This document shows positions 5,103 through 31,015 of a stretch of DNA of 44,054 nt, one piece after another. The stretch's first letter is position 1; each line of letters starts with the position of its first letter. The notes beneath the pieces are model-generated. The model made no database searches. It saw only the letters and a program-made list of their open reading frames with translations, and was not told where the DNA came from. This stretch comes from a virus: IMG/VR virus record IMGVR_UViG_3300050821_008300, positions 1 to 44,054 of that record. The stretch is one strand, 5' to 3'. Position numbers and translations under genes: made by a program.

Positions 5103-6328
5103 GCGTACACCTTCTCACCTTTCATCGTTAGTGTGACAAAGGGATCAGTCAGAGGAGCGATCGCGGGACCTTTAAAGAAGAACACAGCGCCTTCTACTGA
5201 CGCGTTGCCGAACGCCGCGGCGCCTACTGCAATCCATGACGGGGAGCCTGCAATGTCCGCGGTCGCTGAGCCGAAATACGTCAAAGTAACCGGCGTGGGA
5301 GCTGTGAGCTTTTGTGTTTGCGTCCACGTTCCACCGATAAACTGAAACACGTAAGCCGCGCCCGCAAAAGTCTGCCCTCCGACCGTTGCAGCCCGTGCCC
5401 CAATTGCCATCAGGGTACCGTTTACAGCGACACCATAGCCGAACTGATCACCGTTTACGCTGTCCGAACCAACGAGCGTGGTAAGCAAACCCCACGTTCC
5501 ACCGCCAGCAGATTTGTAGACGTACGCCTTTCCCGTGGTGCTGAAGCCGCCACCGATGACAAGCGTTTGGCTATCGCAGGCAACAGAGATTCCAAAGAAA
5601 TCATTGGCCGCGGCGCCGACGATCTTCTGAACTTGCTGGTATTGCCCAGCCACAAGAGTGAAAACGTAGACTGCGCCTTTGTTGCCGGCTTGATCGATCG
5701 CACTCAAGAAAAGTTGGTTTCCGGTAATCGCCCCAATTGAGAGCGAATCACTCACGCCAATGTCAGACGGTTGGAACTGCTGTACCTGAGTCCATGTGTT
5801 CCCTGCACGAACAAAGACGTAACAGGCCGGCCCTGATCCGACAGTCGAGCATACGACGGCGATATTTCCGAAGACCGCGCACGCGACACCAAAGTTTCCC
5901 TGTGGGGCTCCGTCGAGCGGAAGTAATCTCTGTTGAATCGTCCAATTGCCGTTGAGATCGCGGACACACGCAAACACGGCGCCATTCGGGAAGACACCGG
6001 AATTGTAGTAGCCGATTACCGCCGTGTTGCCGCTCAATCCGGGAATGCCCATTGAAGCCGTAGCTTCTACGCCGGTACCGGGGATTAAGTCGAGCTGCCC
6101 GATCCACACTCCTGGTAATCCGGAAGTCTGGACAATCACATCGGCGTAACCTGGAGCACTCGCGCTATTCAACGGCCCGAGTACAGCGATTGAGTTCAGG
6201 ACTGTACCATCTGGAGGATTGGAGCTTCCATCCGGCCCAGTGATCGGAGTCAGGAACGAACCGAAGTCATCACTCGAAGGCGAACCGCCGCGCCCGTTAA
6301 TCGAGTTTGCAAATACGAATCCGCCCAT
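5099..6328 (-). CDS. FG-GAP (integrin-type) beta-propeller protein
   Basis: 409 residues. At least five blades carry the FG-GAP pattern: NFGVACAVFGNIAVV, FFGISVACDSQTLVIGGG, QFGYGVAVNGTLMAIGARA and YFGSATADIAGSPSWIAVGA, each followed by GxVYVF-type strands (AYVYKSAGGGTW, AAYVFQFIGGTW). Such propellers mediate adhesion. There is no signal peptide. The C-terminus DPFVTLTMKGEKVYA matches the preceding protein's tail. Its start ATG overlaps the TAA of the upstream gene, and its stop overlaps the next GTG. Likely a receptor-binding spike; the exact ligand is unknown. Confidence 0.8.
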   Translation of the reverse strand: MGGFVFANSINGRGGSPSSDDFGSFLTPITGPDGSSNPPDGTVLNSIAVLGPLNSASAPGYADVIVQTSGLPGVWIGQLDLIPGTGVEATASMGIPGLSGNTAVIGYYNSGVFPNGAVFACVRDLNGNWTIQQRLLPLDGAPQGNFGVACAVFGNIAVVCSTVGSGPACYVFVRAGNTWTQVQQFQPSDIGVSDSLSIGAITGNQLFLSAIDQAGNKGAVYVFTLVAGQYQQVQKIVGAAANDFFGISVACDSQTLVIGGGFSTTGKAYVYKSAGGGTWGLLTTLVGSDSVNGDQFGYGVAVNGTLMAIGARAATVGGQTFAGAAYVFQFIGGTWTQTQKLTAPTPVTLTYFGSATADIAGSPSWIAVGAAAFGNASVEGAVFFFKGPAIAPLTDPFVTLTMKGEKVYA

Positions 6329-7137
6329 TACGGTAAGGCCACCAGATCGAAGTAGAGCAACTGATTTTTCGGAATGTAAATCTCGGGGTAGATCAGGCCG
6401 GGTGTTTGTTGGTTATTGAAGCCAAAAATCAAATCCAGAGGAACGAAATCGTTCATGAAATACTTTCCGGTCCAGTCCTTTATCTTGATCCCAACATTCC
6501 GGATCGCGCCCACTGGAGAAAGCGTGTTGCCTGGGTTCGAAGTTTGCGCGCTGAACTGCCAGCAGAAATCCGCATCGGGATTCACTGCGAAAGGAACGTT
6601 TAGCAATGGCAGTTTGTTATTGTCGAACTGTACCGAGTACCCAACGAAGGGCCGCGCTGGCTTCGACGGGTCACGCACAGGCCACCACACCGAGCCTTCA
6701 CCATACAATTTTGTCCCCGTGAAAACGACCATCACTAGCTTATCGCCAACAAACGCATTTTCGGATAAATCGAGAATGATAGAAGTTGCGTTTGGGTAGA
6801 AGATGTTTTTCTTGAGCGCCGAAAAGTACGAGTAGTAGGGAGCTGTCTGCGAACCTGCTCCGTTCACTGCCTGGTTATCGAACGGGTTCAACATCTGACA
6901 AGAGTCAAGATGTTTTTGTACCCACGTCTGATCCGGCATGGTGAAACGAAGTGTCAGCCCAATGTTAGGCGCCGCACCAAGCGGAGCACCCGTGGAAGAG
7001 AACACATACACTGCGATTCCGGTCATGCGAAACGGAGCGTCAGTGTCAAGTGTGATTTCCTGACCAAGAGCCGATGCGCCCGCGGTTGCAGCCGGGTTTG
7101 TAAACCGGAAGACGTTCCACTGTGGTCTTTCGATCAT
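6328..7137 (-). CDS. Tandem beta-domain protein (possible double jelly-roll)
   Basis: 269 residues; the ATG at 7137 forms ATGA with the upstream stop. Two successive domains of about 130 residues share the order APFRMTGIAV or DADFCWQFSA, then a strand ending in W or F (LTLRFTMPDQTWVQKHL; VGIKIKDWTGKYFMNDFVPL), then YPNATSIILDL or IPKNQLLYFDL, and VMVVFTGTKLYG. The next two genes carry the same unit. Duplicated beta-sandwiches of this size recall double jelly-roll capsid proteins of membrane viruses, but that is only a structural guess. It may equally be a spike or fibre base. Confidence 0.7.
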   Translation of the reverse strand: MIERPQWNVFRFTNPAATAGASALGQEITLDTDAPFRMTGIAVYVFSSTGAPLGAAPNIGLTLRFTMPDQTWVQKHLDSCQMLNPFDNQAVNGAGSQTAPYYSYFSALKKNIFYPNATSIILDLSENAFVGDKLVMVVFTGTKLYGEGSVWWPVRDPSKPARPFVGYSVQFDNNKLPLLNVPFAVNPDADFCWQFSAQTSNPGNTLSPVGAIRNVGIKIKDWTGKYFMNDFVPLDLIFGFNNQQTPGLIYPEIYIPKNQLLYFDLVALP

Positions 7138-8066
7138 TGGCACGCCCCATATATTTTTTTACCGCGAAGTGAGAAACGCAAAGTCCCGCCCTGTCCAAAG
7201 CTCAGATCAACCAGAACTACACCGCCCCGCGGAATGAAGATTGCCGGCCAATGAGGAGCTGGGCGCCCACCGCCAGAACTGAATACCGATTCCCGAAACA
7301 GCCCCGACACGGGCGAGCCCCACGGATTGATGAGCGGAGATTGAATCATCGAAAGCCCGATCGCATCATAAAAAGTGACGCCCAAGCCGCCCACCGTCGC
7401 GACGTCATTGTTTGCGGTGTTCCAGTCGCCTGACGTCGCACACCACCAGAAATCCGCGTCATTGTCAGTCTGAAGTGGAATTTTCAGAAGATCAACCGCG
7501 GCTGCTTGGGTGAAGGTGAAAGGATACTCGAAGTCTTCGAACTCCTGACCCTTTGCCGGTTTAGGATACGTGCGATACATCGGCGTGTATGGCGGGTTCA
7601 ACGCCGAAATATCCGCGCACTGATTTCTTTTCCAGCCTTTGAGCAAAAGCACTACGCTTACAACCTCACCCACGGTTTGGTTGATGTTCTGGTAATCGAT
7701 CAAGAGCACTGAGCCGCGGCGCAACGGCCAGGGAGGGCAGAGCGGTCCATTCAAATCAGAGATCGGCACAAAGTCCGAAGTGAATAGCCTTCCCTGCCCG
7801 TCCCGGATTCTCACGCGGATATCCGAAGGTAATGCCGTTGTGGTGTTGGGGACTGTATCGACGGTCACGAGTGTAATTGCGGTTTGGATTTCAGCGCACA
7901 GAAAATCTGCATCACTGTCAATCGCAAGAATCTGCCCCATGACGAAAGAGTTTGAAGGAACCAGAACCGTTGGAAGATCCACGTCCCATTCCTGATCCTG
8001 CATCCCCGAGATGACCGGGGTGAAGCCCATCCACGGGGGAGCGAGGGGATTTCCGAAAGTGCTCAT
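7134..8066 (-). CDS. Tandem beta-domain protein, paralogue of the next gene
   Basis: 310 residues. Unit 1 contains DSDADFLCAEI, IRVRIRDGQGRLFTSDFVPI and RRGSVLLIDYQNI. Unit 2 contains DNDADFWWCATSG, GVTFYDAIGLSMI, IPRGGVVLVDLSF and LRFSLRGKKIYG. These align with the domains of the 6328 and 8063 genes, so the three genes hold about five copies of one beta-domain. ATGA overlaps at both ends couple translation. No signal peptide. Likely a structural virion component made in fixed ratio with its neighbours; family not recognised. Confidence 0.72.
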   Translation of the reverse strand: MSTFGNPLAPPWMGFTPVISGMQDQEWDVDLPTVLVPSNSFVMGQILAIDSDADFLCAEIQTAITLVTVDTVPNTTTALPSDIRVRIRDGQGRLFTSDFVPISDLNGPLCPPWPLRRGSVLLIDYQNINQTVGEVVSVVLLLKGWKRNQCADISALNPPYTPMYRTYPKPAKGQEFEDFEYPFTFTQAAAVDLLKIPLQTDNDADFWWCATSGDWNTANNDVATVGGLGVTFYDAIGLSMIQSPLINPWGSPVSGLFRESVFSSGGGRPAPHWPAIFIPRGGVVLVDLSFGQGGTLRFSLRGKKIYGACQ

Positions 8067-8497
8067 GAGTTCACCAAGTCTACCAGGATCACGCCTTCAA
8101 AGTAGATTTCCAAATTGGCCGTTGAACCCACGAGCGAGTTATCGAAGTTCAGCCGGATCTTTGAAGATTTGGGGCAAAGCTTGTGGGGAGTGATCAATCG
8201 TCCGCGGCGCCCGGTTCCAACGAACGAAAAGAAATCGACGCCTGGGTTTGAAAGATACCGGCCATCCGGCCATTGAATCTGTACCAGGGTTCCAGGGGTT
8301 ACGCCGGTCGAACTGACCACCTTACAGATAAAATCGTGCTCGGATGGAGTCGCGATCTCGACGTCGTTCAGGATCGCGCCGTTTGCGATCTGCTGATAAA
8401 CAGGGATTGTATGCGCGATCGCGAGCTTGGTAACATTCCCAAGGCTCCACTTATTGCACGCGCCGAGCTGGTAATCCGTGATGTTCGCAAGCCTCAT
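8063..8497 (-). CDS. Single beta-domain structural protein
   Basis: 144 residues with one copy of the beta unit seen twice in the two following genes: EHDFICKVVSSTG, LVQIQWPDGRYLSNPGVDFFSF, KSSKIRLNFDNS and ANLEIYFEGVILVDL. ATGA overlap with both neighbours. It could be the ancestral single-domain form or a pentameric vertex partner for the double-domain proteins. No enzymatic motif. Confidence 0.7.
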   Translation of the reverse strand: MRLANITDYQLGACNKWSLGNVTKLAIAHTIPVYQQIANGAILNDVEIATPSEHDFICKVVSSTGVTPGTLVQIQWPDGRYLSNPGVDFFSFVGTGRRGRLITPHKLCPKSSKIRLNFDNSLVGSTANLEIYFEGVILVDLVNS

Positions 8498-8706: not shown

Positions 8707-9369
8707 TCACTCGTTACCGCCCGTCAGTGCGCTGGCTCCAATTATGAGCAGCAGAAGACCCCACAGAAGTGGGGCTGAAAGACCATTGCCAGGTACCGGA
8801 GTCGGATACGTCGGACGTTGCGCGCAATTCGCTGAGCCGGCCGATGTCACTGTGGTTGACGGCTGCCCCGCTCCCGGACTCGATCCGCCTGGAGTTCCTG
8901 CGCCTTGGCCAAGCGCCGCGGGAGAAACGCCGGCAGTACTCGACGGAATCGGCGCGGGGCTACTTGATCCAACCGAATTCACGTTGGTTGAAGCCGGAGC
9001 CGCGGGCGCGCCTGGTGTTGACGGTAGCGCGATCGTCCCGTCTGCCTGGACTATCGGCTGTCCTGTGCCACCGCCCGGAACCCGTATACGCCGGCCGTAC
9101 AATTTCTCACCACCACCGCCCGGTAACACTGCTGTCGAGCAAGCCGGGGAGTTTGCAAAGTTGGGCGTTGTAGTGCGTGGTGTCGTACCCGGAGGATTGC
9201 CGATTCCGATTCCACCCAACTGCTGAACCAGATTGCTCAAAATCGCGTTCCCTGACGTGAACTTGCTTCCGACACGCATCACGCGGTTGTACTGCGCGGT
9301 CACTTGTGCCTGAGTCAGCGGGGTTGCGCTGTTCGGATGACTACAGGCCATGTCAGAAGTTACGTACAT
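8707..9369 (-). CDS. Tail-anchored Pro/Ser/Thr-rich virion protein
   Basis: 220 residues from MYVTSDMACSHPNSAT; the ATG at 9369 has a strong GGAGAGGTA leader and overlaps the TAA of an upstream micro-ORF. The middle (about 90-190) is a disordered Pro/Ala/Ser/Thr/Gly linker. The C-terminus SAPLLWGLLLLIIGASALTGG is a single membrane anchor resembling the anchors of the genes at 15112-20600. The longer reading frame runs through two hairpins and is unlikely. Probably a membrane-anchored virion or surface spike protein; function unknown. Confidence 0.7.
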   Translation of the reverse strand: MYVTSDMACSHPNSATPLTQAQVTAQYNRVMRVGSKFTSGNAILSNLVQQLGGIGIGNPPGTTPRTTTPNFANSPACSTAVLPGGGGEKLYGRRIRVPGGGTGQPIVQADGTIALPSTPGAPAAPASTNVNSVGSSSPAPIPSSTAGVSPAALGQGAGTPGGSSPGAGQPSTTVTSAGSANCAQRPTYPTPVPGNGLSAPLLWGLLLLIIGASALTGGNE

Positions 9370-9446
9370 TACCTCTCCATTTTCCGTTTCGCGCTGAACT
9401 GGGGTTTCAGCGCGCTGAAGCTTTCTCGATACCTCGGTAGTCTCAT
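9369..9446 (-). CDS. 25-residue micro-ORF bracketed by B and A hairpins
   Basis: MRLPRYRESFSALKPQFSAKRKMER. On the coding strand it is preceded by the B hairpin at 9459-9481 plus GGAGAAAGATCGATG, contains the A hairpin at 9391-9413 in its second half, and ends in TAATG, overlapping the next gene. This is the smallest case of the B-gene-A arrangement. The peptide itself is basic with no recognisable domain; it may be a translational-coupling leader and not a functional protein. Confidence 0.5.
   Translation of the reverse strand: MRLPRYRESFSALKPQFSAKRKMER
9391..9413 (-). repeat. Hairpin, A form on coding strand (variant loop)
   Basis: Stem GCGCTGAA, plus-strand loop CTGGGGT (one change). Within the 3' half of the 25-residue ORF, just before the 8707 gene's ribosome site. 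Confidence 0.8.
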
Positions 9447-9584: not shown

Positions 9585-10451
9585 TTACTGGACCGACCGA
9601 TCTGTCAAGCCATCCAAGACAACGCGTAGGAAGGCAGACTGCCCGCCCGTAGTCCCTTGAGTGCCCGACGTCGATCCGCCGACGTAGTTACCCGCGGTCG
9701 AACCGGTTCCAATGGTCGGGGCCACGATGCCACCGCCGCCGAAGTTCAGCACCATTGAAAACTGCTGAAGGGGAGCGATGTACTTCGCCCAGTCCTGATA
9801 ACGTCTGGAGAACTGAGGCGCCGGAAGAGCGAGCGTGTAGCAAGACTCACCCGAATTCTGGGTTACGCCCGTCACGCCGCCGCCCGAAGGAAATTCAATG
9901 AGCGAGCCTTCGTGGAAAATCTTGTCGTCAATGCGAAACTCCATGTAGGCCGTGTTGACGATCGCGTCAATGTCAGGCTTCAAGAAGTTGGGCGAGAACT
10001 GAAACTCGATCGCGAGTAGCAGGAGGCAACGGGGAGGCGGAAGGCCATTCGAAGCGGATCGCGTGAGGTTGGTTTGCAGTTTCGACTTAGCGACTCCGTT
10101 AGTCGGGCCGCCCACTGCGCCCTGCGTGTTTACCGCGCCGATCTGATTCTGGAAGACTTGAATCTGACTCGGCACGGCCGCTGCGTTTGCGAAATAGATC
10201 GTGTCCCAATATTGCCAGGGGCCACGGTCTACCCAATTTTGCATAATCGCGTTTGTGTTACGCGCTTGCGCGGCTTCGGATGCGCTCATGATTTGGGGAG
10301 CCCCACCCGAATAAGCCATCCCGATCATGCCGAGCGCGCCGATAGCTTCAATCAGCGCTACTGCGGGTCGGGGGGAGTAAGCAACGTAAGCCACAGCGCA
10401 CAAAAGCGCGAGCGGGACTAACGCCGCTAGAAAAAGTTTGCGTGGAATCAT
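9585..10451 (-). CDS. Candidate major virion protein with N-terminal membrane segment
   Basis: 288 residues. An N-terminal hydrophobic segment (about 6-25) is followed by a second weaker one (about 33-50), then a beta-rich body with FRIDDKIFHEGSLIEFPSG and FSMVLNFGGGG, and a Gly-rich C-terminal region. The ribosome site (AAGGAAAAGGAA before ATG) is among the strongest in the operon, and a 10-bp hairpin sits upstream, both fitting high expression. I do not recognise the family. Position and expression signals make it a candidate major capsid or membrane-associated virion protein; this is inference. Confidence 0.6.
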   Translation of the reverse strand: MIPRKLFLAALVPLALLCAVAYVAYSPRPAVALIEAIGALGMIGMAYSGGAPQIMSASEAAQARNTNAIMQNWVDRGPWQYWDTIYFANAAAVPSQIQVFQNQIGAVNTQGAVGGPTNGVAKSKLQTNLTRSASNGLPPPRCLLLLAIEFQFSPNFLKPDIDAIVNTAYMEFRIDDKIFHEGSLIEFPSGGGVTGVTQNSGESCYTLALPAPQFSRRYQDWAKYIAPLQQFSMVLNFGGGGIVAPTIGTGSTAGNYVGGSTSGTQGTTGGQSAFLRVVLDGLTDRSVQ

Positions 10452-10538: not shown

Positions 10539-11414
10539 TTAGTACAGTCCGCTCTTGCCGCCGTACAAGTCGCCCATACCCGAGGCAATGCCCGCCGAAG
10601 CCGGCATAGTCACCGCGGGAGGCGGGGTTACTGCCGACAAGAGACCTTGCGGCCATTGGATGTCAGCATTCTGGTACGGATTGACAAGCACCTGGGGAGT
10701 GAGCCACGCTTGCGCCTGGTAATCTCCCATGCCCAATCCGGACACATACGAACCGAACGGCGTGTAGTCGCTGATCAGCCGTAGGATGATCTCAACTGCG
10801 GTACCTGCGATAATGCCATTGGCTGCGTCTTTGTTGTGCATGACTTTTTCAGCCACGAACCACATTGCGCCGCCCGCGATCGCATTCGCCGCGTATCCGA
10901 CTACGCCCGTGTTGTTCGAACCCAACACCATTTGAGCGAGAAGCTTCGAGCCCACCGCGCCGACAATCACGAAAACTGCGTTGATCGCGATGGACGAGAT
11001 ACGGCCCATGCCTTCGCCGGGATTCCGACGACGGTAATTCATGCGCCGACGTCCAGTGTTGCGCCGACGATGATGAACGTAATTTCTCCGACGCCCAGTG
11101 TTTCGACGACGGTTAACGCGATGCCCACCGGAGCGGGCACGGCGTCTACGATGATGCTTCTTTGTAGCTGCCATCTTCCTCTTACCTCTGTTCTTTCTGC
11201 TTGCCGGTTGAGCAAACGTGTAACCAATGATCTCGCCGGAATTCCTTCTGCGTCTCGATCGATGGCGAGTGTTCGACCGCGAAGAGCTTGAACGCTTGCG
11301 CGTTCCGCGAAGCCGCGCTTTTTGCGCTGGCGTACCGAAGAAGCGGATTTGTTTTGCAGACATCTTCCGCCGTCCTCGGTTTGCGATGATTCTTTCCCGT
11401 GTGGTTTGGGCCAT
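10539..11414 (-). CDS. Arg-rich membrane virion protein
   Basis: 291 residues. Residues 1-130 are extremely basic (runs such as RHRSRRRRNSGE, RRNTGRRRNYVHHRRR). The rest has two to three membrane-compatible helices (AINAVFVIVGAVGSKLLAQM, AANAIAGGAMWFVAEK, IIAGTAVEIILRLI) and ends GMGDLYGGKSGLY. Motif AKQIRFFGT near residue 20 and an internal MAATKKHHRRRR look like the beginnings of two separate proteins, so this may be a fusion. The basic domain could bind packaged DNA while the helices span a virion membrane; inferred. Confidence 0.7.
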   Translation of the reverse strand: MAQTTRERIIANRGRRKMSAKQIRFFGTPAQKARLRGTRKRSSSSRSNTRHRSRRRRNSGEIIGYTFAQPASRKNRGKRKMAATKKHHRRRRARSGGHRVNRRRNTGRRRNYVHHRRRNTGRRRMNYRRRNPGEGMGRISSIAINAVFVIVGAVGSKLLAQMVLGSNNTGVVGYAANAIAGGAMWFVAEKVMHNKDAANGIIAGTAVEIILRLISDYTPFGSYVSGLGMGDYQAQAWLTPQVLVNPYQNADIQWPQGLLSAVTPPPAVTMPASAGIASGMGDLYGGKSGLY

Positions 11415-11942: not shown

Positions 11943-13316
11943 CTACGCAACTGAAACTGCCTTGACTCTCTCCCGCGGCTCCAAGTTCTGCACCTTTCGA
12001 TGAGGAACATATACCGCCTTGTCAACCATGAATCTGCACCCCACCGCCTTCGCTCTGCGGCAAAACGCGAGATCTTCCGGAACGAAGCCGTACGGAAATG
12101 TTTCATCCGCGATCGGCGCAAATGCGTGACGGCCGGCTTTTTTCAAAGTCTCGCCACGCATCAGAAAGCACGGGAAGCCCGTAAAATCGATCTCGCGCTG
12201 ATTCGGCCCGTTCTTCAATTCCGCTTCCGTCAAGTAGTGCCGCTGGCCGTCCATGTAGACGCCACATGAAATATTCAACGGCCCGTCTTCTTGTCCCCAA
12301 TAGCACCAACCCGCAACGCCGTCGATCTCGGGGAATTCTTTGAGCACTGCAAAGAGCCGCGCGAAGTCGATCGGCGCGACGAGGTTGTCATGGTCGATCC
12401 ACAACACCAGATCCGGCAGAGGATCAATCTGCATTACCTGGTGAGCCATGCCTTCCCGGATAATGTGCGGATTCGGCGCCCAGCCGGGTATTGGAAACAC
12501 GTTCGCTTCGTTCGCAATGTAGTGCGAAAGGGCAAGAGTGTTTGCGAGGTAATCCGGGCCGAAATTGGTTCCTGGTAGACACATCGCGATAGAGTAGCCC
12601 CGCGGAGGCGTGTACTCTTTCGCGAATCCGAGATGATGCAGCCGCCGCCGATAAATTTCTTCACCGATTTCAAAGGCTTCGCGCCTGTGTTGATGCTTGT
12701 GGGTCGCGTCCATCTCACCGTGTCCGTAGAGTGGGTGACGATGTTCGCAGAACAAGTGCCGGGCATCGATCACAACACCGTCACGCCGCGCGACAATCGT
12801 GAATTCATTGTCCGCGTACATGCCGAGATATTCCGGCCAGAACAGATAACCGAACTTTTTGTAGTACGCACGCGTGAGAAGTGAGAACGTAAGTAGTCCG
12901 TGGTTTCCGCCCGTGTCCACTTCTAAGACGTGCTCGCCGTCGAGATCCGGAATCATCTTTAGGAATTCCGTATCCCAGTGAGGGCAGGGAAACCAGTCAT
13001 CCGCAAGCGTGATCAGAAACTTTCCTGTCGATAGCTCTGCGGATTTGTTCCAGCCATCTACCGCGCACTTACGACCGCGATTCACGCCAAACTTTGTATC
13101 CGCGAAGATCGGCGCCGCGGAGATCGGTTCATCAGTCACTAGAACGTGTTCGATGTCGCCGGGGTTGTCCGCTGCGTCGTGCCAGGCTTGCGCCGCGGCC
13201 CTCCAACCGTTAGGGAGCCGCGCTGTCGTGTGGCATAGGCTGAACGTCGGGCGTACGCCAGGATGCCCAATACCTTTAGCTCCGCGAATTAAAGACATAA
13301 ATCGATCTCTGTTCAC
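11943..13316 (-). CDS. Two-domain GT-A glycosyltransferase-like protein
   Basis: 457 residues from a GTG that overlaps the upstream stop (GTGA). Domain 1 (about 20-230) is GT2-like: FSLCHTTARLPNGW, NKSAELSTGKFLITLADDWFP (a DxD-like ADDW). Domain 2 (about 240-450) repeats the layout: SIAMCLPGTNFGPDYLANTL, DLVLWIDHDNLVAP (DHDN acting as DxD), DGVAGWCYWG and DFTGFPCFLMRGETL. Two metal-binding motifs argue for two active sites. Within a structural operon it probably glycosylates virion proteins or modifies a host surface polymer. Acceptor unknown. Confidence 0.8.
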   Translation of the reverse strand: MNRDRFMSLIRGAKGIGHPGVRPTFSLCHTTARLPNGWRAAAQAWHDAADNPGDIEHVLVTDEPISAAPIFADTKFGVNRGRKCAVDGWNKSAELSTGKFLITLADDWFPCPHWDTEFLKMIPDLDGEHVLEVDTGGNHGLLTFSLLTRAYYKKFGYLFWPEYLGMYADNEFTIVARRDGVVIDARHLFCEHRHPLYGHGEMDATHKHQHRREAFEIGEEIYRRRLHHLGFAKEYTPPRGYSIAMCLPGTNFGPDYLANTLALSHYIANEANVFPIPGWAPNPHIIREGMAHQVMQIDPLPDLVLWIDHDNLVAPIDFARLFAVLKEFPEIDGVAGWCYWGQEDGPLNISCGVYMDGQRHYLTEAELKNGPNQREIDFTGFPCFLMRGETLKKAGRHAFAPIADETFPYGFVPEDLAFCRRAKAVGCRFMVDKAVYVPHRKVQNLEPRERVKAVSVA

Positions 13317-14865: not shown

Positions 14866-15115
14866 GTTTCGCCACCAGCGCCGCAATTGCAGCTCCCAAT
14901 GCAAACTCGATTACTTCGCCGCCAGTCCGCTCCCACGAGACGCCTTGACCCACCTGAGAAAGTTGGTAGCCCACAAATACCATTGCAATTGCTAAGCCCC
15001 ACGCAGGAGGAACGTAACCGGCCAGGAATCCAATGCCGACATGCGCGGCCGATCCCTCGTCCGTGAAAACTACCGGAAGCGCCGGTACTCCCATCGTTGT
15101 GAGGTTTAGAGTCAT
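14858..15115 (-). CDS. Small two-helix membrane protein
   Basis: 85 residues; the ATG at 15115 forms ATGA with the upstream stop. It contains two or three hydrophobic helices (HVGIGFLAGYVPPAWGLAIAM, FVGYQLSQVG, VIEFALGAAIAALVAKHA). Holin-like or virion membrane protein; it lacks the RGLGQ motif of the next genes. Confidence 0.65.
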   Translation of the reverse strand: MTLNLTTMGVPALPVVFTDEGSAAHVGIGFLAGYVPPAWGLAIAMVFVGYQLSQVGQGVSWERTGGEVIEFALGAAIAALVAKHA

Positions 15116-15456
15116 CGCCTTTTGTCGCTCAACCCACTCATCAAACCAATCGCCCCGATCCCCGCCGCAAGTCCAATCCAGACTGGGAAGGTGAAACCAA
15201 AAACCGTAACGCTGTTCGTCAGGAAGGACAGATCGACTTGGCCGATTCCTTTTTGACACCCACAACCGCAATCACCAGCGCATCCGAGCCCTGGATTACT
15301 CAGCGCCCGCGTTGTCATGCCCATGTAGCGAGCATTCGCGTAATCAGCCGTCACACCATGCGGGCCACGATACGGTGAGGCGAATCGATACGGAGGCGGG
15401 TAATATTCCCAGCCCCACGGCGTTGACGTACGGTTGTAGTCTCCGAGTCCCCTCAT
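15112..15456 (-). CDS. Tail-anchored protein of the RGLGQ family
   Basis: 114 residues beginning MRGLGDYNRTSTPWG, with a Tyr/Pro-rich stretch, a Cys/Gly cluster (GCAGDCGCGCQ), then anchor VFGFTFPVWIGLAAGIGAIGL and a basic end (SDKRR). The anchor has the family signature F-G-x3-P-x-W-[IL]-G. ATGA overlaps on both sides. Likely one of a set of membrane-inserted virion proteins; the Cys cluster could form disulfides or bind metal. Confidence 0.7.
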   Translation of the reverse strand: MRGLGDYNRTSTPWGWEYYPPPYRFASPYRGPHGVTADYANARYMGMTTRALSNPGLGCAGDCGCGCQKGIGQVDLSFLTNSVTVFGFTFPVWIGLAAGIGAIGLMSGLSDKRR

Positions 15457-15872
15457 ATGCTCTCCAATTGACTCATTAGGGATTGGCGCTGTTGACTTCG
15501 CCGCCGCCGTTTTCTGACCGCGCGCTTTACTGATCTGCCCGTCGAAAAAACTCCCTGTACAAGATTCCACGCAAGGAACCCAACCGCGGCAATAACAACC
15601 CACTCACCCACGCCCCACGTTGAAAAGTCGGTCGATGAAAACAGATTGCTAAAAGCGGTGAGTGGATTCGGAATCGAGATCCCGGTTACGGCATCGGTCG
15701 AAGTCGAGTCTTGACCCATCCCGCGTGAACCCCATTGCTGCGGTGAAAGCTTCATGCCCGATGCAGCGAAATCAGCGGGACTCCACGTCTCATCCATCGG
15801 CTTGACTCGCGCATTCAACGCGCCGCACTGTGGCAGCGGAGCTTTCGGGCGAGTGTATTGAACGTAGCTCAA
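15453..15872 (-). CDS. Tail-anchored protein of the RGLGQ family (variant)
   Basis: 139 residues. SRGMGQDSTSTD near residue 50 is the family motif. The anchor FSTWGVGEWVVIAAVGFLAW is followed by a strongly basic tail (VKRAVRKRRRRSQQR), which makes the topology N-out/C-in likely. ATGA overlaps at both ends. It differs from its neighbours by placing the motif 50 residues in and by the long basic tail, which could touch nucleic acid inside a virion. Confidence 0.65.
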   Translation of the reverse strand: MSYVQYTRPKAPLPQCGALNARVKPMDETWSPADFAASGMKLSPQQWGSRGMGQDSTSTDAVTGISIPNPLTAFSNLFSSTDFSTWGVGEWVVIAAVGFLAWNLVQGVFSTGRSVKRAVRKRRRRSQQRQSLMSQLESI

Positions 15873-16351
15873 TGCCGCCCTCCCAAGAGAACTGCACCAC
15901 CGAGAACAATCAACCCGATCAGTAGCCAGGGGATTTGCGGAACTGGATTGTTAGGGTCCGTCACGTCTACCGGAAAGAGCGCTTGAACTGCCGCGGGACC
16001 AATCAGCGCTGAAAGCGTGGGCCAGTTTGCCGCCGCGATTTGTTGCTGGTAGTTTGCCGGGTTCGCCGCTGCATCCGCCGCCACAGCCGCATTGCCCGCC
16101 GCGATCGCTGCTAACTGCGCCGCCGTGGGAGCTGAAGTAGTCGCAAGCTCCGCGGTCTGCGAAGCTGTGATTTGTGCTGGCGTCGGGATCGCGCATGTCG
16201 CCGGGCTGAACGTCTGACCGATCGAAGATCCGCAATACCAGTCCATCACTGAGCTTCCGCCAAGATAACGGCCGCTCGCGTCATATTGAGCGATGCCAGT
16301 TCCGGCCGGCCCAAGCGTAGCTGTAGCGAACTGTCCCACTCCGCGCCGCAT
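15869..16351 (-). CDS. Tail-anchored protein of the RGLGQ family
   Basis: 160 residues from MRRGVGQFATATLGP; the ATG at 16351 was chosen because AGAGGA lies 7 nt upstream. A Thr/Ala-rich helical middle (TAAQLAAIAAGNAAVAADA) leads to VPQIPWLLIGLIVLGGAVLLGG, a clear anchor with the IPWLLIG signature. Two Cys (about 35 and 50) could pair. Coupled to the next gene by ATGA. Probably virion membrane protein. Confidence 0.7.
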   Translation of the reverse strand: MRRGVGQFATATLGPAGTGIAQYDASGRYLGGSSVMDWYCGSSIGQTFSPATCAIPTPAQITASQTAELATTSAPTAAQLAAIAAGNAAVAADAAANPANYQQQIAAANWPTLSALIGPAAVQALFPVDVTDPNNPVPQIPWLLIGLIVLGGAVLLGGRH

Positions 16352-16377
16352 CCGCATTCCTCTGGTGAGGTAAGGCA

Positions 16378-16620
16378 CTATCCGCGCTTCCTCCCCGCTA
16401 AGCCCAGCTCGCGCGCAATATCTTTTCCTGTGATTGGCTTCGATGGGATCGTCCCTTGAATCACGGTCTCTACTAATTCTCCGAGCCCTGCGTTCCAAAC
16501 TTCCTTCAGACCGATCTCGTTTGCAAAGTGTTCCGCGCCACGATAGGCCGCTACGTCCATGCGTCCGCGTGGGTCTGCGTCTTTTAGTCGTTCTACTGGA
16601 GCAGGAGGATTTTTTTTCAT
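16378..16620 (-). CDS. Small soluble protein, unknown
   Basis: 80 residues from MKKNPPAPVERLKDAD; GGAG lies 5 nt before this ATG. An alternative GTG at 16644 would overlap the upstream stop and add 8 residues. The protein is charged and helical (HFANEIGLKEVWNAGLGELVET) with no membrane segment, unlike its neighbours. Possibly an assembly partner of the tail-anchored set. Confidence 0.6.
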   Translation of the reverse strand: MKKNPPAPVERLKDADPRGRMDVAAYRGAEHFANEIGLKEVWNAGLGELVETVIQGTIPSKPITGKDIARELGLAGRKRG

Positions 16621-16640
16621 GCGTACTCCAGTTTTTGGCG

Positions 16641-17003
16641 TCACTTCGTAAACCCCTTATAGAGAACCAGCGCGCTAAGAATCAGCCCAACCGGAACGAG
16701 CCAAGAGGGAACCGACGTACCGAAAATATTCGTAGTTCCAGTCATGCCGGGGAACATGCTCGCGAGTGAATTGGTAGAAATCGCAACGTTGCCAGAGTAC
16801 GTCTGCGAACCCTGCAACGGTCCAGCGAATCCAGGGGGCGCCGTGCCGGATGGAATCGACGGAACTACATTCCCGCTCGGATCAAAGATGGTCTGAGATC
16901 CGTCCGCGGCTGATACGATCTGGTAATCACCGCTCGGTGTTGAAACTGTGGAGTACGTCTGCCCCAATCCCCGAAAGCCGCGCCGCTGCCACATCGGATG
17001 CAT
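16641..17003 (-). CDS. Tail-anchored protein of the RGLGQ family
   Basis: 120 residues: MHPMWQRRGFRGLGQTYSTV at the N-terminus, a Ser/Gly/Pro-rich beta segment with SADGSQTIFDPSGNVVPS, then NIFGTSVPSWLVPVGLILSAL and a short basic end. The segment DGSxxxFDPxGN also occurs in the 19395 protein as DGSVYDPLGNAI, so the two are paralogues over their whole length. Overlaps neighbours by 0-3 nt. Confidence 0.7.
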   Translation of the reverse strand: MHPMWQRRGFRGLGQTYSTVSTPSGDYQIVSAADGSQTIFDPSGNVVPSIPSGTAPPGFAGPLQGSQTYSGNVAISTNSLASMFPGMTGTTNIFGTSVPSWLVPVGLILSALVLYKGFTK

Positions 17004-17750
17004 TTAGCCGGCCCTCCGCATAGGCGTGCTTCTTGGAACGTAGCCGGTTCGCATCGGCGGGCGCCCGCCTGTTCGCAAGTGTTGACGCCCGACGCGCATG
17101 AGTTGCCCAAGGCCGCTGAGCCCTGTAAATCCGGCTTGCCCGAACGCCGTAGCGCGAGCGAGCGTATAATCCGCCGCGGTCATCAGTTGAGAAGAGCTTG
17201 GAAGTTTCTGCGTGTTGTTCGGGTACAGCTCATTGAAAATATAATTCCACTGTTGGGGCGTGTAGACTGCCTGCCCGTTCGGATAACCAGTGGAGGCCGG
17301 CAGTAGATTCGCTGCATGAACACCGTCTGTTATCGCGCGCGCGTTTAAGGTCTGCGCGAAGTTTCCCGCGTTCGCAACGTTCTGCGTTTGAGTTGCAGCG
17401 GACGGAACCGGACACTTCGACCAGCCTTGATCCGGGATAAGATTGCACGCTGGTGGATTCGTCGGCATCTGGGTTATCACGGTTCCATCAGGGCACGTAT
17501 GAGAAACAGGAACGGTACACGTTGGAGGCGGGGGAGGATTGCTGCCACTACCGGAGCCGGTTCCCGAGCCACTACCACTTGAACCGCTACCCGTTCCAGA
17601 TGATCCAGAGCCCGATGACGTTGAGCCCGGAGCAGGGGCCGCGGGAGTGCCGGCCAGCATCGGCGCGATGACGTACTCGTAAGCGAGATATCCGCCGCCG
17701 AGAATCAGAACCCACTTGATCACTTCGCCCATCGTGTCGTCTTTGGCCAT
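17004..17750 (-). CDS. Membrane protein with inverted RGLGQ-family layout
   Basis: 248 residues. The membrane helix is at the N-terminus (EVIKWVLILGGGYLAYEYVI, residues 9-28), followed by a Gly/Ser repeat linker, PPPPPTCTVPVSHTC, four Cys, and at the C-terminus GLSGLGQLMRVGRQHLR, a copy of the family's RGLGQ motif. So helix and motif are in the opposite order to the neighbours. The stop abuts the next ATG and the start overlaps the upstream stop (TAATG). Likely virion spike or stalk. Confidence 0.7.
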   Translation of the reverse strand: MAKDDTMGEVIKWVLILGGGYLAYEYVIAPMLAGTPAAPAPGSTSSGSGSSGTGSGSSGSGSGTGSGSGSNPPPPPTCTVPVSHTCPDGTVITQMPTNPPACNLIPDQGWSKCPVPSAATQTQNVANAGNFAQTLNARAITDGVHAANLLPASTGYPNGQAVYTPQQWNYIFNELYPNNTQKLPSSSQLMTAADYTLARATAFGQAGFTGLSGLGQLMRVGRQHLRTGGRPPMRTGYVPRSTPMRRAG

Positions 17751-18586
17751 TATTTTTTTCCTCCACGCATGAGCAGGTATCCGCCGCCGATTACCACAAC
17801 GCCGATAAGCCAGTAAGGAATCTGCACGCCGAAAATATCCGCGCTCTCAGAGAAGAAGCCGCCACCACTTTGCACTACAACTGTCGTGGGATTCGATCCG
17901 CCTGCGGGAGGATTCGGGCCGCTCAAGAGTTGCTGAAGAAAATTCGTTTGCTGATTCGCGGGCGCCGCTGGCGTTGACGATGACGCCGGCGAACTCGTTG
18001 AACTTAACGATGGGGCGCCGCTAGATGGAGCGATGGAGGCCTGCGAGCCAGCCGGAAGCACAACACCCGAATTCGCCGCAAACACTTTCGTTGGGGTGAA
18101 CGGCGTTGACGGCCCGGTCGGATTCGTGAGATTCGGATTCGGCGTATACGCGACGGACGGCCCGCTTCCAGAGCAAAACGGTAACGTTGGGTCCGCTGCC
18201 TGACCAGGGAACGGCCCGTACTGACAACGCCCATTACCCGTGAGTGAATCGCACTCCTGGATGATGTTGCAACCCGTGATAGTCCCGTCGTCCAACATGC
18301 ATTCGTTCGTTGCGAGGTTCACCACGTTGCATCCGGGCGCGCTCGCGTAGTTCACTGCTTTCGGAGCCGCGGCTTGGACGTTGTTTTTGTTGGGAGCAAA
18401 ACCAGGATCAATGCAGCCGCCGTTTGCAGCCTGCACTAAACCCGCAGGACACGTCACGCCCAGCCCGCGCATGCCGCGCTTCCTCAGTACGATCGGCATT
18501 CGAACGCGGATCATTCGCCCGCCTGGTTGCCGCATCAGAACGGTTTGAGGGAGACCGGAAAGACCCTGCTCAACTTTCAGGAACAT
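17750..18586 (-). CDS. Tail-anchored, Cys-containing protein of the RGLGQ family
   Basis: 278 residues from the ATG at 18586, which overlaps the end of a 31-residue ORF. A basic leader (RMIRVRMPIVLRKR) leads into GMRGLGVTCPAGLVQ, then a domain with eight or more Cys (about 45-145), a Ser/Pro/Ala linker, and the anchor IFGVQIPYWLIGVVVIGGGYLL with MRGGKK at the end. The Cys-rich ectodomain suggests an oxidised, exposed compartment. Longest clear member of the family after the 19395 gene. Confidence 0.7.
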   Translation of the reverse strand: MFLKVEQGLSGLPQTVLMRQPGGRMIRVRMPIVLRKRGMRGLGVTCPAGLVQAANGGCIDPGFAPNKNNVQAAAPKAVNYASAPGCNVVNLATNECMLDDGTITGCNIIQECDSLTGNGRCQYGPFPGQAADPTLPFCSGSGPSVAYTPNPNLTNPTGPSTPFTPTKVFAANSGVVLPAGSQASIAPSSGAPSLSSTSSPASSSTPAAPANQQTNFLQQLLSGPNPPAGGSNPTTVVVQSGGGFFSESADIFGVQIPYWLIGVVVIGGGYLLMRGGKK

Positions 18587-18672
18587 ATCCAACCTAAAAG
18601 AGTCTGATGCCACCACGTATAAGCGAGTTGTAGGAGCGTAGGCGCAAGCACAACTGCTGTGATGAGTCTCAT
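18577..18672 (-). CDS. 31-residue membrane micro-protein
   Basis: MRLITAVVLAPTLLQLAY then TWWHQTLLGWICS. One hydrophobic helix with Trp at the interface. The ATG overlaps the upstream stop (ATGA) and its TGA overlaps the next gene's start by 10 nt, so it fits the operon exactly although it is very short. Holin, lysis-regulator or virion micro-membrane protein are possible; nothing decides between them. Confidence 0.6.
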   Translation of the reverse strand: MRLITAVVLAPTLLQLAYTWWHQTLLGWICS

Positions 18673-19394
18673 TCGTTCACCGCCCAAAGAAGAGCAAGCC
18701 CGCCCGCGCCAATCAACCACAGTGGCAATCCGAAAACAGAAGCCGTGAGCAAACCGGAAACTGACGCGGGAAGAGCGGCCGAAATTGCAGAAGTTACGGA
18801 AGACGTTGCGGCTGCCGCTGGACTCGGAGGCGGGCCTACATCCGGATCGTTCGCAACTGGATCGTAGAAGAAAGACCAGTAATCGCAGAAGCCAATCTGC
18901 CCGCCGCCCATATTCGAATCGTTCAACGTGCTCGGACATGCTCGCCGCGTGAGTCTCTCTGCAATACAGCGCTGTCCCGCTTTCCCCAATGCCGGGTTTC
19001 CGCACATCTGCTGGAGCCAGCCGAAAATCTGATTGCACGCTTGCAAAAAAGCTTGCTGTGCTTCGTAAGGCCGCGGAGTCGGTAACGCGAAGTACTGAGC
19101 TTTCAACGTGTCTAGTTGCGCGCCTGCCTGATTCGCGTACGTTGTAGCCTGCGTGCAAGTCGCGCCGCATCCGGAAAAGATTTGAGCGAAGATACTCACG
19201 AGCTGTGCAGCAGCCTGAACGAATGGCGCGGCCGGCCCAGTGAATGGCGCAATCGCATTTGCAATCCCAGCCCCTTGCTGCCAAGCTGCCTCGGAGCCCA
19301 TGCCCCGCGATCGCTGCACGCCACGTTTGACGATTGCCCGACGCGCTGCAACTCCAGTGCAGCGCGAAACGGAAGATGCTGAAGAAACGTACAC
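18669..19394 (-). CDS. Tail-anchored Cys-rich protein with hairpin-encoded N-terminus
   Basis: 241 residues if translation starts at the GTG that abuts the upstream stop. Residues 9-17 (VSRCTGVAAR) are the translated B hairpin at 19343-19365. After this come RGVQRSRGMGSEAAWQQG, a helical Ala/Gln region, about nine Cys (70-165) and the anchor VFGLPLWLIGAGGLALLW. A later start inside the RGMGS region is possible, which would put the B hairpin in the leader. Member of the RGLGQ/anchor set. Confidence 0.65.
   Translation of the reverse strand: MYVSSASSVSRCTGVAARRAIVKRGVQRSRGMGSEAAWQQGAGIANAIAPFTGPAAPFVQAAAQLVSIFAQIFSGCGATCTQATTYANQAGAQLDTLKAQYFALPTPRPYEAQQAFLQACNQIFGWLQQMCGNPALGKAGQRCIAERLTRRACPSTLNDSNMGGGQIGFCDYWSFFYDPVANDPDVGPPPSPAAAATSSVTSAISAALPASVSGLLTASVFGLPLWLIGAGGLALLWAVNE
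19343..19365 (-). repeat. Hairpin, B form on coding strand
   Basis: Stem GCGCTGCA, plus-strand loop ACTCCAG, 3' flank GAAACGGAAGATGCTGAAG. Lies at the N-terminal end of the 18669 gene. Confidence 0.85.
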
Positions 19395-20600
19395 TCACTT
19401 TTTTCCAATCTCACCAAAGATGAGTACCGCTACAACACCAATTGCAAGCCAAGGAAGTATGCCGGCAAAGCTGGAAGTGAGTTGCGCGTTTGCAAGAGAT
19501 TGCCCCGTGTAAACTGGTTGACCATTCGCACCCATCACGTAACCAGGCGGAAGAGTCGCGAGCTGTGCCGCTTTCAATCCGCCCGACACAAGACTGCTGA
19601 TGACGTTCCCCCAGTTCGTGCCAGGTGTTGCCGGCGTGCTGTTTGCTGTGCTCGCGACTGGATTCAAATCGCTAAGCGCGGAGTTGATTTGATTGGTAAT
19701 CGAAGTTGGAACCGTAGAAAAATCCGTAATCGCATTGCCGAGCGGATCATACACAGAGCCGTCATTGCCAACGGAATAAAACAATCCGGGGGTTCCCGTG
19801 TCGATCGTCTCAAACGTAGTGGAGGTGTCCTGTCCGAGCCCGCGCATTCCACGGCGCCGCATCACTCCGCGCGATTTACGCATCTTCGAGCCGCGGGGCA
19901 GATATCCGTGCAGCGTGTTCTTCGTTTGCGTCGGGAACGCCTGCACTGGATTGCCGTTCAAGTCCCACGCCTGCCAACGTGTAATGTGATCGCGTGGAAC
20001 CATCCAGCCCGGTTGCTTGCCGTGTGAGCAGTCCATCGGAAAGTACCCGCCGTTCACTTGCGCCATTGGGAACACGTGCGACCAGCGTTCAGGGTCGGAC
20101 GGATCGGCCGCCACCGTCACAATTACAGATGGGATACCGAGAATCTTGAGAAGACAACACACAAGCATGGTGAAGCCATCGCAATCTTCTTTAGGAGCCG
20201 GCTCGCGGACAAGCACGGCGGGCGCAATCAACAAGTCCAGCGCTTCCGGTTCTCCGATCTGAAACAACCGCGGCTCATCCTTCGCGAACTTGACGGCGTG
20301 TTTTACCAGCCACCACACGCCCCAACACGGCCCGCCGAGCTGTCCCCACTGAGCATTTGCTTGCGAAGCCCAGTATCGGCACACGTCATCTGTGGCGCCG
20401 GCCGCGATGTACTCGCACATCTTTGCAATCGTCTGCCTGGTTGACGTGTCCGTGTCCGGAGCCGCAGGGATCTTCTCTTTAATGATGGGGCCGGGATTTG
20501 ATGCTACGATCGCCGCGCTCGCCGGCATTGGCGGTGACGGATCTTGCGCGGGAGCGCTATCTAACGAGCCGTACATCGATCCGCTTTCGAGATAGTCCAC
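19395..20600 (-). CDS. Transglutaminase-like Cys protein fused to an RGLGQ/anchor domain
   Basis: 401 residues from GTG 20600 (ATG 20576 is an alternative; GGAGG lies 15 nt before the GTG). Residues about 50-200 carry a transglutaminase-like triad: Cys140 in EDCDGFTMLVCCLL, His175 in RWSHVFPM and Asp190 in GYFPMDCSHG. Such folds act as cysteine proteases, amidases or cross-linkers. From residue 240 the protein is a typical RGLGQ family member: RRRGMRGLGQDTSTTF, DGSVYDPLGN, and anchor FAGILPWLAIGVVAVLIFG. First gene of the operon. It could mature or cross-link the other family members. Confidence 0.75.
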   Translation of the reverse strand: MDYLESGSMYGSLDSAPAQDPSPPMPASAAIVASNPGPIIKEKIPAAPDTDTSTRQTIAKMCEYIAAGATDDVCRYWASQANAQWGQLGGPCWGVWWLVKHAVKFAKDEPRLFQIGEPEALDLLIAPAVLVREPAPKEDCDGFTMLVCCLLKILGIPSVIVTVAADPSDPERWSHVFPMAQVNGGYFPMDCSHGKQPGWMVPRDHITRWQAWDLNGNPVQAFPTQTKNTLHGYLPRGSKMRKSRGVMRRRGMRGLGQDTSTTFETIDTGTPGLFYSVGNDGSVYDPLGNAITDFSTVPTSITNQINSALSDLNPVASTANSTPATPGTNWGNVISSLVSGGLKAAQLATLPPGYVMGANGQPVYTGQSLANAQLTSSFAGILPWLAIGVVAVLIFGEIGKK

Positions 20601-25410: not shown

Positions 25411-25433
25411 GTGCTGCCCTGGAGTGGCAGCAC
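25411..25433 (+). repeat. Hairpin, B form
   Basis: Stem GTGCTGCC, loop CTGGAGT, followed by GTTCGGAGGTCGATG, the start of the 25446 gene. Confidence 0.88.
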
Positions 25434-25667: not shown

Positions 25668-25906
25668 AGAACCTCTCAATGGAAACCTACTATTCTGTGC
25701 GTGTGAAAGTTGGAGGGCAACGTAATTTCGTCCGGATCGCAACTGCCGATCTCAAAGGTATGCGCGTTGGGGATACGTGCAGATTGTCAGACGGACGTAT
25801 TGGAGTTATACGAAAAATCACTGCGGGCGAAGGGTTTTCGTTAAACCCCCAACGTGCTGCCACTCCAGGGCAGCACGAAACGCAGGATGCTGAAGGAACG
25901 GAGTAG
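25664..25906 (+). CDS. Small beta-rich protein with A-hairpin tail
   Basis: 80 residues from a TTG overlapping the upstream TGA, or 75 from ATG 25679. The body (YYSVRVKVGGQRNFVRIA, MRVGDTCRLSDGRIGVIRKI) looks like a small SH3-like barrel. The last 18 residues, PQRAATPGQHETQDAEGTE, are the translated A hairpin at 25854-25876 with its conserved 3' flank. The same tail ends several unrelated proteins here. Confidence 0.6.
   Translation: MKNLSMETYYSVRVKVGGQRNFVRIATADLKGMRVGDTCRLSDGRIGVIRKITAGEGFSLNPQRAATPGQHETQDAEGTE
25854..25876 (+). repeat. Hairpin, A form
   Basis: Stem GTGCTGCC (same as the partner B at 25411), loop ACTCCAG; encodes the tail of the 25664 protein. Confidence 0.88.
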
Positions 25907-27980: not shown

Positions 27981-28481
27981 GTGCCTGTGACGCCGCCGCG
28001 TTCCCGAGATAGGCTAGACTTTATCAAGACGCTACCGTGTTGTGTCTGTGGACGATCGCGCAACGTGCAGCCATGCCACACACCGCGGTTAGCTGGAGAC
28101 GAAGCCCGCGGGATGGGACAAAAGCGGGACGACTTCCGCGCAATTCCAATGTGTTGGATTCATCACGCCGAACAGCATTCTATCGGATGGCCGCGATTCA
28201 TCCAGACTTACGACTTGGATTTGCAGGAGATCCTACGGGAGTTGAGAGAAAAGCCCGTACTGGTGGTTTGGTCGGGGATTCCAACTCTCGGGCAACTATG
28301 TCCGCGTGATCCCAGGTTCTTCGGATGGGGTCCGCGCTTCGTGGCATTGTACCGAGATCAGGAGTTTATTTTGAAGTCAGTTGATGATGGGCTCGAAGCT
28401 TCGCTTGATCTGGCTTTTCGGGTGTGCGGGGAATACCTTAGAGATCAGCTAAGGGAAAGACACTTGAAGAAGGCGAGCTGA
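27981..28481 (+). CDS. DUF968-like HNH nuclease
   Basis: 166 residues. CCVCGRSRNVQPCHT, QKRDDFRAIPMCWIHH and AEQHSIGWPRF fit the DUF968/recombination endonuclease-like HNH pattern, with a zinc ribbon and central His pair. The start GTG at 27981 lies 60 bp after the previous gene. Probable role in recombination or replication intermediate processing. A helical C-terminal third is of unknown function. Confidence 0.75.
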   Translation: MPVTPPRSRDRLDFIKTLPCCVCGRSRNVQPCHTPRLAGDEARGMGQKRDDFRAIPMCWIHHAEQHSIGWPRFIQTYDLDLQEILRELREKPVLVVWSGIPTLGQLCPRDPRFFGWGPRFVALYRDQEFILKSVDDGLEASLDLAFRVCGEYLRDQLRERHLKKAS

Positions 28482-28978: not shown

Positions 28979-29611
28979 CTAAGGTGCTTGTTCGGATGCT
29001 AACCATGCATTCTTTGTGGCCGCATTTAACGCTGGGGCCAATCCGCGAATAGCTAGCCACGACGTATACTCATCTTCTGTTTTGTCGCACTTTTGTGAGT
29101 TGCAGGGCTTGCAAGATGCCTGGATATTGCTGATTGAATGTTGTCCGCCTCTTGAAAGTGGGCGCACGTGGTCTATTGTTAAAGGACGGCGCAAATTTCC
29201 ACACCAGTAGCAAACGCCTTCCACAATTCGTTTGCAGAATGCTCCAAACATGTGAGCGTCCAATCTATCCCTCCGGGTCGTGTTATCGGAGTCCTTGCGA
29301 GTGTAGTTAGTTCGGATATTGTTAAGAATGCGGCGACGGTCCAGCATTTGCTTTCGTGCAACGTCCTTAGACGTCTGTAATTCGGCCCGCTTGAAAGATT
29401 CTTCAATCAGCAAATTTTGAAAATCTATTCTGCGCTGGCGTTCCCGTTCTTGACGCTGCCGCTGCTGTTCTTGAAGTCTATTCTGTTAGTATGCCCTCTG
29501 TGCGCGGCTACGACTCGTTCTTTTGGCTAGCCGTTTTTGCTCATTATAAAAGACCGCGAAATCGGCAGCGGAGCGCTGGGCCATTGCAAACCATTCCTGT
29601 TCTGTAGCCAC
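28979..29611 (-). pseudogene. HNH homing endonuclease interrupted by a stop codon
   Basis: One frame runs from GTG 29611 to 28979 (211 codons) with a single internal TAA at 29488-29486 (codon 42). Before it: QRSAADFAVFYNEQKRLAK; after it an uninterrupted charged helix (QNRLQEQQRQRQERERQRR) into the C-terminal HNH: CYWCGNLRRPLTIDHV, RPLSRGGQHSISNIQ, SCKPCNSQKCDKT. Its base composition is more AT-rich than that of its neighbours and it opposes their direction, as for an invading homing nuclease. The stop suggests decay, unless the C-terminal part is reinitiated (TTG 29413). Confidence 0.75.
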
Positions 29612-30883: not shown

Positions 30884-31014
30884 GAGCGCTTTTCTATTGG
30901 CTGATGGGCTGGAATCCTTGCCCGAATCTATCTCCGCTGTGGCTATGTGACTTCAGGAAGCGCTTTTGTGTTGTTTGCCGGTTACAGGCTTACCGTCGAT
31001 TGGTCAAGGGGTAA
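30880..31014 (+). CDS. 44-residue Cys/Trp-rich protein
   Basis: MRALFYWLMGWNPCPNLSP onward with CVVCRLQAYRRLVKG. ATGA coupled. A CxxC-containing micro-protein ahead of the dioxygenase gene. Unknown. Confidence 0.5.
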   Translation: MRALFYWLMGWNPCPNLSPLWLCDFRKRFCVVCRLQAYRRLVKG

Positions 31015-31015
31015 A

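Follow-up and report, generated by a model that had tools for sequence, protein, structure and literature searches.

The stretch of DNA considered here, hereafter the window, is the whole of IMG/VR virus record IMGVR_UViG_3300050821_008300 (44,054 nucleotides), and between positions 15112 and 20600 it carries a tandem series of genes, most of whose products combine a short basic motif, the head, with a hydrophobic anchor at the C-terminus. A direct terminal repeat of 97 bp, with identical copies at 1-97 and 43958-44054, marks the window as a complete circular virus genome of 43,957 bp. An earlier note on this DNA had proposed that at least seven adjacent genes, together with one at 40162, share an N-terminal head and a C-terminal anchor separated by unrelated middles. 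All of these open reading frames (ORFs), which are named here by their lower coordinate, were present on the minus strand as given below. A basic R-G-[LMVF]-G head, mostly placed after further arginines, was found in eight window genes, and in all of their products except that of 15453 the C-terminus is formed by one hydrophobic helix with a very short tail.

The series begins with 19395 (19395-20600), which encodes a transglutaminase-like domain (approximately 20025-20441), an internal head, RRRGMRGLGQ (approximately 19830-19862), a linker and the C-terminal anchor LPWLAIGVVAVLIFGEIGKK. There follow 18669 (18669-19394; head QRSRGMGS, anchor FGLPLWLIG), which has orthologues in seven viruses and an uncertain start (GTG at 19394 or 19319); 17750 (17750-18586; head KRGMRGLGV, anchor FGVQIPYWLIG...RGGKK); 16641 (16641-17003; head QRRGFRGLGQ, anchor FGTSVPSWLVP...KGFTK); 15869 (15869-16378; head MPYLTRGMRMRRGVGQ, core MRRGVGQ, anchor QIPWLLIG...GGRH); 15453 (15453-15872; head GSRGMGQ, transmembrane segment FSTWGVGEWVVIAAVGFLAWNLV); and 15112 (15112-15456; head HMRGLGD, anchor FGFTFPVWIG...SDKRR). 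For three of these the true start probably lies downstream of the longest ORF, namely at 15456 in 15112 (open to 15603), at 16378 in 15869 (open to 16498) and at 18586 in 17750 (open to 18616). Outside the series, 40162 (40162-40701; orthologues in four viruses) has the head MPYVFVGRRIRRRGVGD (RRGVGD), a muramidase-like middle (RNNNPGNL) and an anchor; it matches the lysozyme domains of PHROG tape-measure and endolysin families (best E=2.5e-16).

The pattern described in the earlier note was borne out for most of these proteins and needs amendment in some. Approximately 40 mostly basic residues lie beyond the hydrophobic segment of 15453, which thus has no short-tail anchor, and the tail of 40162, DFTDPTTIAITLGIGLAIAWALNA, lacks the IPxW motif. 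The head is not N-terminal in 19395, where it sits internally, after the transglutaminase-like domain. The middles are mostly unrelated, with no pair scoring above 10 bits, except that the middle of 16641 clusters by homology with the linker of 19395. Gene 17004 (17004-17750, minus strand) had been described as a member in reverse order, and it does begin with a transmembrane helix and end with SGLGQ and a basic tail (GLSGLGQLMRVGR...GYVPRSTPMRRAG); orthologues or analogues occur in five relatives (L002, L009 with two copies, L015, L017 and L021). Gene 8707 (8707-9369, minus strand; 12 viruses) is, as was claimed, an anchor-only member in the window; its homologue in relative L010 (2587-3165) nonetheless bears a head, RRGMRGWDQ.

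The related viruses form an uncultivated, little-known group from soil and peat. The protein of 9585-10319 led to the first of them (L002), and successive alignments then gave approximately 15 related contigs, mostly of 33-45 kb, one of which (G002) has a terminal repeat as well. In the closely examined relatives, wherever the contig covers the region, the transglutaminase protein is followed by the head/anchor cluster, then by the basic membrane protein and lastly by the capsid candidate. The relatives are virus contigs, plus one 41-kb contig binned in a metagenome-assembled genome (MAG), and the earlier suggestion of a novel surface apparatus gains no support from them. That contig, L022 (PMAK01000004.1), comes from a Phycisphaerales MAG of permafrost palsa, and its binning is a weak hint of the host, as it is possibly a virus contig that was binned. 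A tblastn search with window proteins 19395, 9585, 18669, 7134 and 10539 gave no match in 50,697 phage records.

The likeness of the heads goes beyond composition. Across 14 related viruses, [RK]G[LMVFI]G precedes the tail in 36 of 69 tail-anchored proteins, whereas 2000 within-protein shuffles gave 2.1 on average and never more than 8, and the same head occurs in 9 of 330 non-anchored proteins (Fisher P=9e-24 versus anchored). The window alone gives 6 of 11 versus 0.3 by shuffling, a count which missed 18669 and 15453, masked by ORF overlap. Tails of short transmembrane proteins do converge and a loose G-x-G pattern, taken by itself, shows weak enrichment, so that low-complexity heads and hydrophobic tails might merely look alike; this explanation is contradicted by both tests and by the conservation of head positions among orthologues of 12 viruses, and we consider it hardly credible. 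The tails have recurring features of their own, P-x(0-2)-W being present in 23 of 49 (6.7 in shuffled tails, maximum 15) and at least two R/K within the last four residues in 29 of 49, compared with 59 of 421 other proteins. By the positive-inside rule such C-terminal RR/KK tails would imply that the N-terminal part lies outside. The bacterial tail-anchored proteins YqjD and ElaB, however, have like tails and a cytoplasmic N-terminal part, so the rule is indecisive for topology and this line of reasoning was dropped.

The best-defined member of the set is 19395. Residues 54-192 of its product form the transglutaminase-like domain, in which Cys140, His175 and Asp190 (ORF numbering) occur in order and are invariant in 12 viruses; a GxG motif usually comes next, within approximately 15-65 residues. 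The family profile matches all 11 relatives of at least 33 kb with E-values of 1e-57 or better. Pfam Transglut_core (PF01841) matches the window protein below the cut-off (E=0.034) and that of one relative (G007) above it (E=2e-11), and a sequence-profile search found no PDB match. The closest parallel is SSIP-1, a circular double-stranded DNA (dsDNA) phage of 44 kb with an internal membrane (PMC6260650, PMC6356626), whose genome is hardly similar to anything in GenBank according to a 2019 review (PMC6356626). Its gp34 consists of a Transglut_core domain (E=9e-7, above the cut-off), then RARGMGEPT, then a C-terminal anchor, which is the arrangement of 19395, with its Cys-His-Asp domain, RG[ML]G, linker and anchor. 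Comparison of the 19395 family with gp34 by hhalign gave a probability of 96% (E=4e-9) with Cys, His and Asp aligned. The structural region of SSIP-1 encodes approximately nine tail-anchored proteins, and the annotation names three of them, gp34, gp41 and gp53, as structural. When one rule was applied throughout, tail-anchored proteins made up 16% of genes in the window, 21% in SSIP-1, 19% in PM2, 3% in T7 and 0% in lambda, PRD1 and P23-77.

Aligned heads give the logo R-[RG]-[RM]-[RS]-G-[MLVF]-G-[DQA]-T, with the highest information in G-x-G-[DQ]-T, and the mean charge per residue falls from +0.28 over the 15 residues up to the motif to -0.11 over the next 15 (Wilcoxon P=1e-9). The head thus belongs to a cassette with a second element, [PGNSA]Y[VILF], which lies ahead of it in 15 of 49 proteins (3.5 when shuffled) and is recognised because M-[PAS]-Y-[VIL] opens many unrelated proteins of the set and [GN]Y[VL]... 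closes the reversed ones. Several proteins have two motifs flanking a basic stretch, and in the reversed class GLG adjoins the C-terminal basic peptide. It is fairly likely that the head is a common assembly signal. That it is a targeting peptide whose end is the site at which the transglutaminase-like enzyme cuts is a more specific reading, which we hold with less than even confidence. We lean slightly towards cleavage because the charge border is sharp, the motifs are paired, and they are used at either protein end and internally beside the enzyme, and also because the recurring-motif systems of T4 and adenovirus are processing systems. Somewhat doubtful, but to be taken seriously, is the alternative of docking only, in which an uncut short linear motif would bind one partner shared by all the proteins, for example the inner surface of the capsid, thereby tethering membrane to shell in the manner of an encapsulin cargo-loading peptide, leaving the enzyme for cell-wall or cross-linking work. 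The conservation of [PG]Y[VLI]R ahead of the motif in unrelated proteins, and near the C-terminus in reversed ones, would suit such a role, as would the internal cassette of 19395; the sharp charge boundary and the paired motifs round basic stretches, on the other hand, resemble processing sites, and the enzyme is always present with its triad intact.

The arginine-rich membrane protein 10539 (10539-11414, minus strand; 14 viruses) bears on two of the alternatives. It has 57 R/K/H before its first transmembrane helix, followed by G-[MV]-G-D-Y, and most of its 14 homologues have 49-68 such residues in this part, the second half being membrane-spanning. The presence of GxGDY inside this polytopic family in 14 of 14 viruses is a further point for docking. 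The heads, with a charge of approximately +4 per 15 residues, might instead face the packaged DNA and, together with 10539, neutralise it, RG-x-G being then a nucleic-acid-binding loop; the lack of a detected FtsK-type packaging ATPase would be in keeping with this. We regard it as improbable, as the fixed G-x-G-[DQ]-T, the most informative part of the motif, is not needed for charge alone.

The nature of the virion is indicated in part by a candidate major capsid protein encoded at 9585-10319 (minus strand), which was modelled with AlphaFold2 (AF2) and compared by Foldseek, and appears jelly-roll-like. An earlier model made from the window sequence was poor, with a predicted local distance difference test (pLDDT) score of 54; a model from 14 sequences, with that of relative L017 first, reached pLDDT 63.5 and a predicted template modelling score (pTM) of 0.64. 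Solved structures gave weak matches, many of them jelly-roll, the most probable being the SPV1 capsid (0.93). In the viral library BFVD the best full-length viral match was I1ZBH9 (211 amino acids (aa); probability 1.00, template modelling (TM) score 0.46), and I1ZBI0 (256 aa) was matched with probability 0.93. We infer that these two are SSIP-1 gp46 and gp47, because their lengths match consecutive structural genes and their accessions are consecutive. A sequence-profile search with the capsid candidate found no PDB match. The window has one such candidate, conserved in approximately 15 relatives, compared with the two jelly-roll major capsid proteins of SSIP-1.

Taken together, the series at 15112-20600 with 40162, 8707 and 10539 is probably best explained as encoding the proteins of an internal membrane in a tailless icosahedral phage distantly related to SSIP-1, and the placing of these proteins in such a virion membrane is its most secure part, being in our view likely. 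The earlier suggestion of a virus with an internal membrane gains from the absence of terminase, portal and tail genes among the matches listed, from the jelly-roll-like capsid candidate and from the anchored set and gp34 architecture of SSIP-1. The C-terminal helix of each protein (in 17004 the N-terminal one) would anchor it in the cytoplasmic membrane of the host, and the middles would do separate jobs, as transglutaminase-like enzyme, muramidase for entry or linkers. The basic cassette, approximately [PG]Y[VLI]R...R-R-G-[MLVF]-G-[DQA]-T, would lie on the membrane-distal side and mark its bearers for incorporation as the capsid assembles on the membrane; the 19395 enzyme might then cut at the RG-x-G boundary during maturation, releasing the basic peptide. 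A quite different possibility is that the virus has no internal membrane and the set is directed at the host, as a surface apparatus or for superinfection exclusion or lysis, for which the muramidase-like domain of 40162 might speak. This is distinctly improbable, given that the cluster adjoins the capsid candidate and is conserved together with it in relatives, that in SSIP-1 three anchored proteins, gp34, gp41 and gp53, carry a structural annotation, and that tailed phages have few anchored proteins.

Several findings weigh against this interpretation or parts of it. The confidence of the capsid model is low to medium and no Foldseek E-value is below 0.001; the identity of I1ZBH9 and I1ZBI0 rests on lengths and accession order, and when profiles of the capsid candidate and of SSIP-1 gp46 and gp47 were compared, no sequence similarity emerged. 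The SSIP-1 ATPase gp40 had no match in 11 records of the clade, in a search without a positive control, and the G-x-G heads of SSIP-1 beyond gp34 are not significant (P approximately 0.1); sequences of this kind there include QGMG in gp36, RGLG in gp37 and PGMG in gp53. The conserved PYVR part of the cassette could be explained equally by docking and by cleavage. Under the rule applied here no protein of PRD1 or P23-77 counts as C-terminally anchored, so that such anchors are no universal mark of membrane phages.

No terminase, portal, HK97 capsid or tail gene was seen among the Pfam matches listed for the window, and the only PHROG family of this kind in the first 25 of 85, phrog_4581 ('terminase small subunit'), stands among HNH-type matches. 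The window also yielded neither a gp40 relative, nor an FtsK-type ATPase family match, nor a protein with a convincing Walker A motif; one may speculate that packaging relies on a divergent or host motor, or is motor-free, perhaps with help from the arginine-rich protein 10539. It is conceivable, albeit rather doubtful, that these viruses are a family-level group of internal-membrane phages whose maturation depends on a membrane-anchored, transglutaminase-like cysteine protease, which would cut a common RG-x-G site on at least eight membrane proteins and so strip off their basic targeting peptides, and that no recognisable packaging ATPase is encoded in their 44 kb.

Other genes of the window include a set of related beta-rich proteins (3277, 3891, 6328, 7134 and 8063; 3277-8497, minus strand), which are candidate minor capsid or spike proteins; the homology cluster to which they all belong counts 49 proteins from 13 viruses, they have multiplied within the genome, and several of them end in L-x-G-x-K-x-Y-[GA]. 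Beside the capsid candidate lies a glycosyltransferase-like protein (11943-13316), conserved in 13 viruses. Matches to a PhyH-type dioxygenase and an FkbM methyltransferase belong, by position, probably to genes 30947 and 31895 (30947-32695), and at least three HNH endonuclease genes (27981-28481, 28979-29413 and 36278-37456) are present in this 44-kb genome. Approximately 26 window sites share one hairpin design, GCATCCTTCGTTT followed by a stem of 8-9 bp showing compensatory changes and the loop CACTGGAGT; examples lie at 9390-9414, 19342-19366, 25411-25433, 25853-25877, 29927-29951, 30146-30170 and 40718-40742. The hairpins, often in inverted pairs spaced 180-450 bp apart, have no Rfam match, and shuffled sequence yields 0-2. 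An 85.9-kb relative, G001 (IMGVR_UViG_3300037116_000081), is chimera-like (L002/L004/L005 versus L006/L007), with hairpins and genes of this virus in approximately 0-47 kb and terminase, portal and HK97-type genes in its second half. The terminase and portal genes were not counted to this virus, being sited in the 47-86 kb half, which is free of hairpin elements.

Short motifs that recur on numerous otherwise unrelated virion proteins and are cleaved by a protease of the virus are familiar from the capsid-targeting peptides of T4 and the protease sites of adenovirus, where they border a terminal, often basic or targeting, peptide. The present case differs in its candidate protease, a membrane-anchored protein of transglutaminase type, and in that cleavage is here our proposal. 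The protein encoded by 19395 may be nominated as a virion maturation enzyme, of a type undescribed in phages in the literature searched, and the occurrence of one short cassette on many unrelated proteins makes the choice of membrane proteins by membrane phages directly testable. PRD1 (a tectivirus), PM2 (a corticovirus) and P23-77 (a matshushitavirus) resemble the predicted virus in that they are tailless, enclose a membrane, and have small membrane proteins as well as lytic enzymes in the virion, but they encode a packaging ATPase and do not have the head motif in common with it. SPV1, of the Portogloboviridae, has a circular dsDNA genome, an internal lipid layer and single jelly-roll capsid proteins, with a subcapsomer protein array between membrane and shell (PMC8459092). 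It is the most probable solved-structure match of the capsid candidate, with an E-value of only 0.018 and a TM score of 0.33, and no common sequence was found; moreover, Portogloboviridae are archaeal viruses of approximately 20 kb with capsid proteins of the SPV1 VP4/VP10 type, and the window, with its 44 kb and a fold match that is only weak, is not placed among them.

The comparison with SSIP-1 is the most instructive. Both have circular dsDNA genomes of approximately 44 kb and many C-terminally anchored proteins, and SSIP-1 gp54, in which a weak SLT lysozyme domain is combined with a C-terminal anchor, parallels the muramidase-like, anchored 40162. They differ in the hairpin elements, of which SSIP-1 has none, and when the families of the clade were searched against the SSIP-1 proteome with hmmsearch, none of the matches listed was better than reversed controls. 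An hhalign comparison of the 18669 family with gp53 aligned the GMG heads at 3% probability and was not used as evidence. Judged by its anchored set and by the likeness of 19395 to gp34, the window virus would appear to work like an internal-membrane phage of the SSIP-1 type; it is not filed in the SSIP-1 family, as no counterpart of the ATPase and no sequence similarity of the capsid were found. The results suggest that the anchored proteins belong to a lipid layer within the particle and that a signal shared by all of them directs their sorting or trimming. SSIP-1, whose laboratory host is Salisaeta and which stands unclassified in the NCBI taxonomy, is now linked to approximately 15 uncultivated viruses, and its membrane proteins gain a common, testable anatomy.

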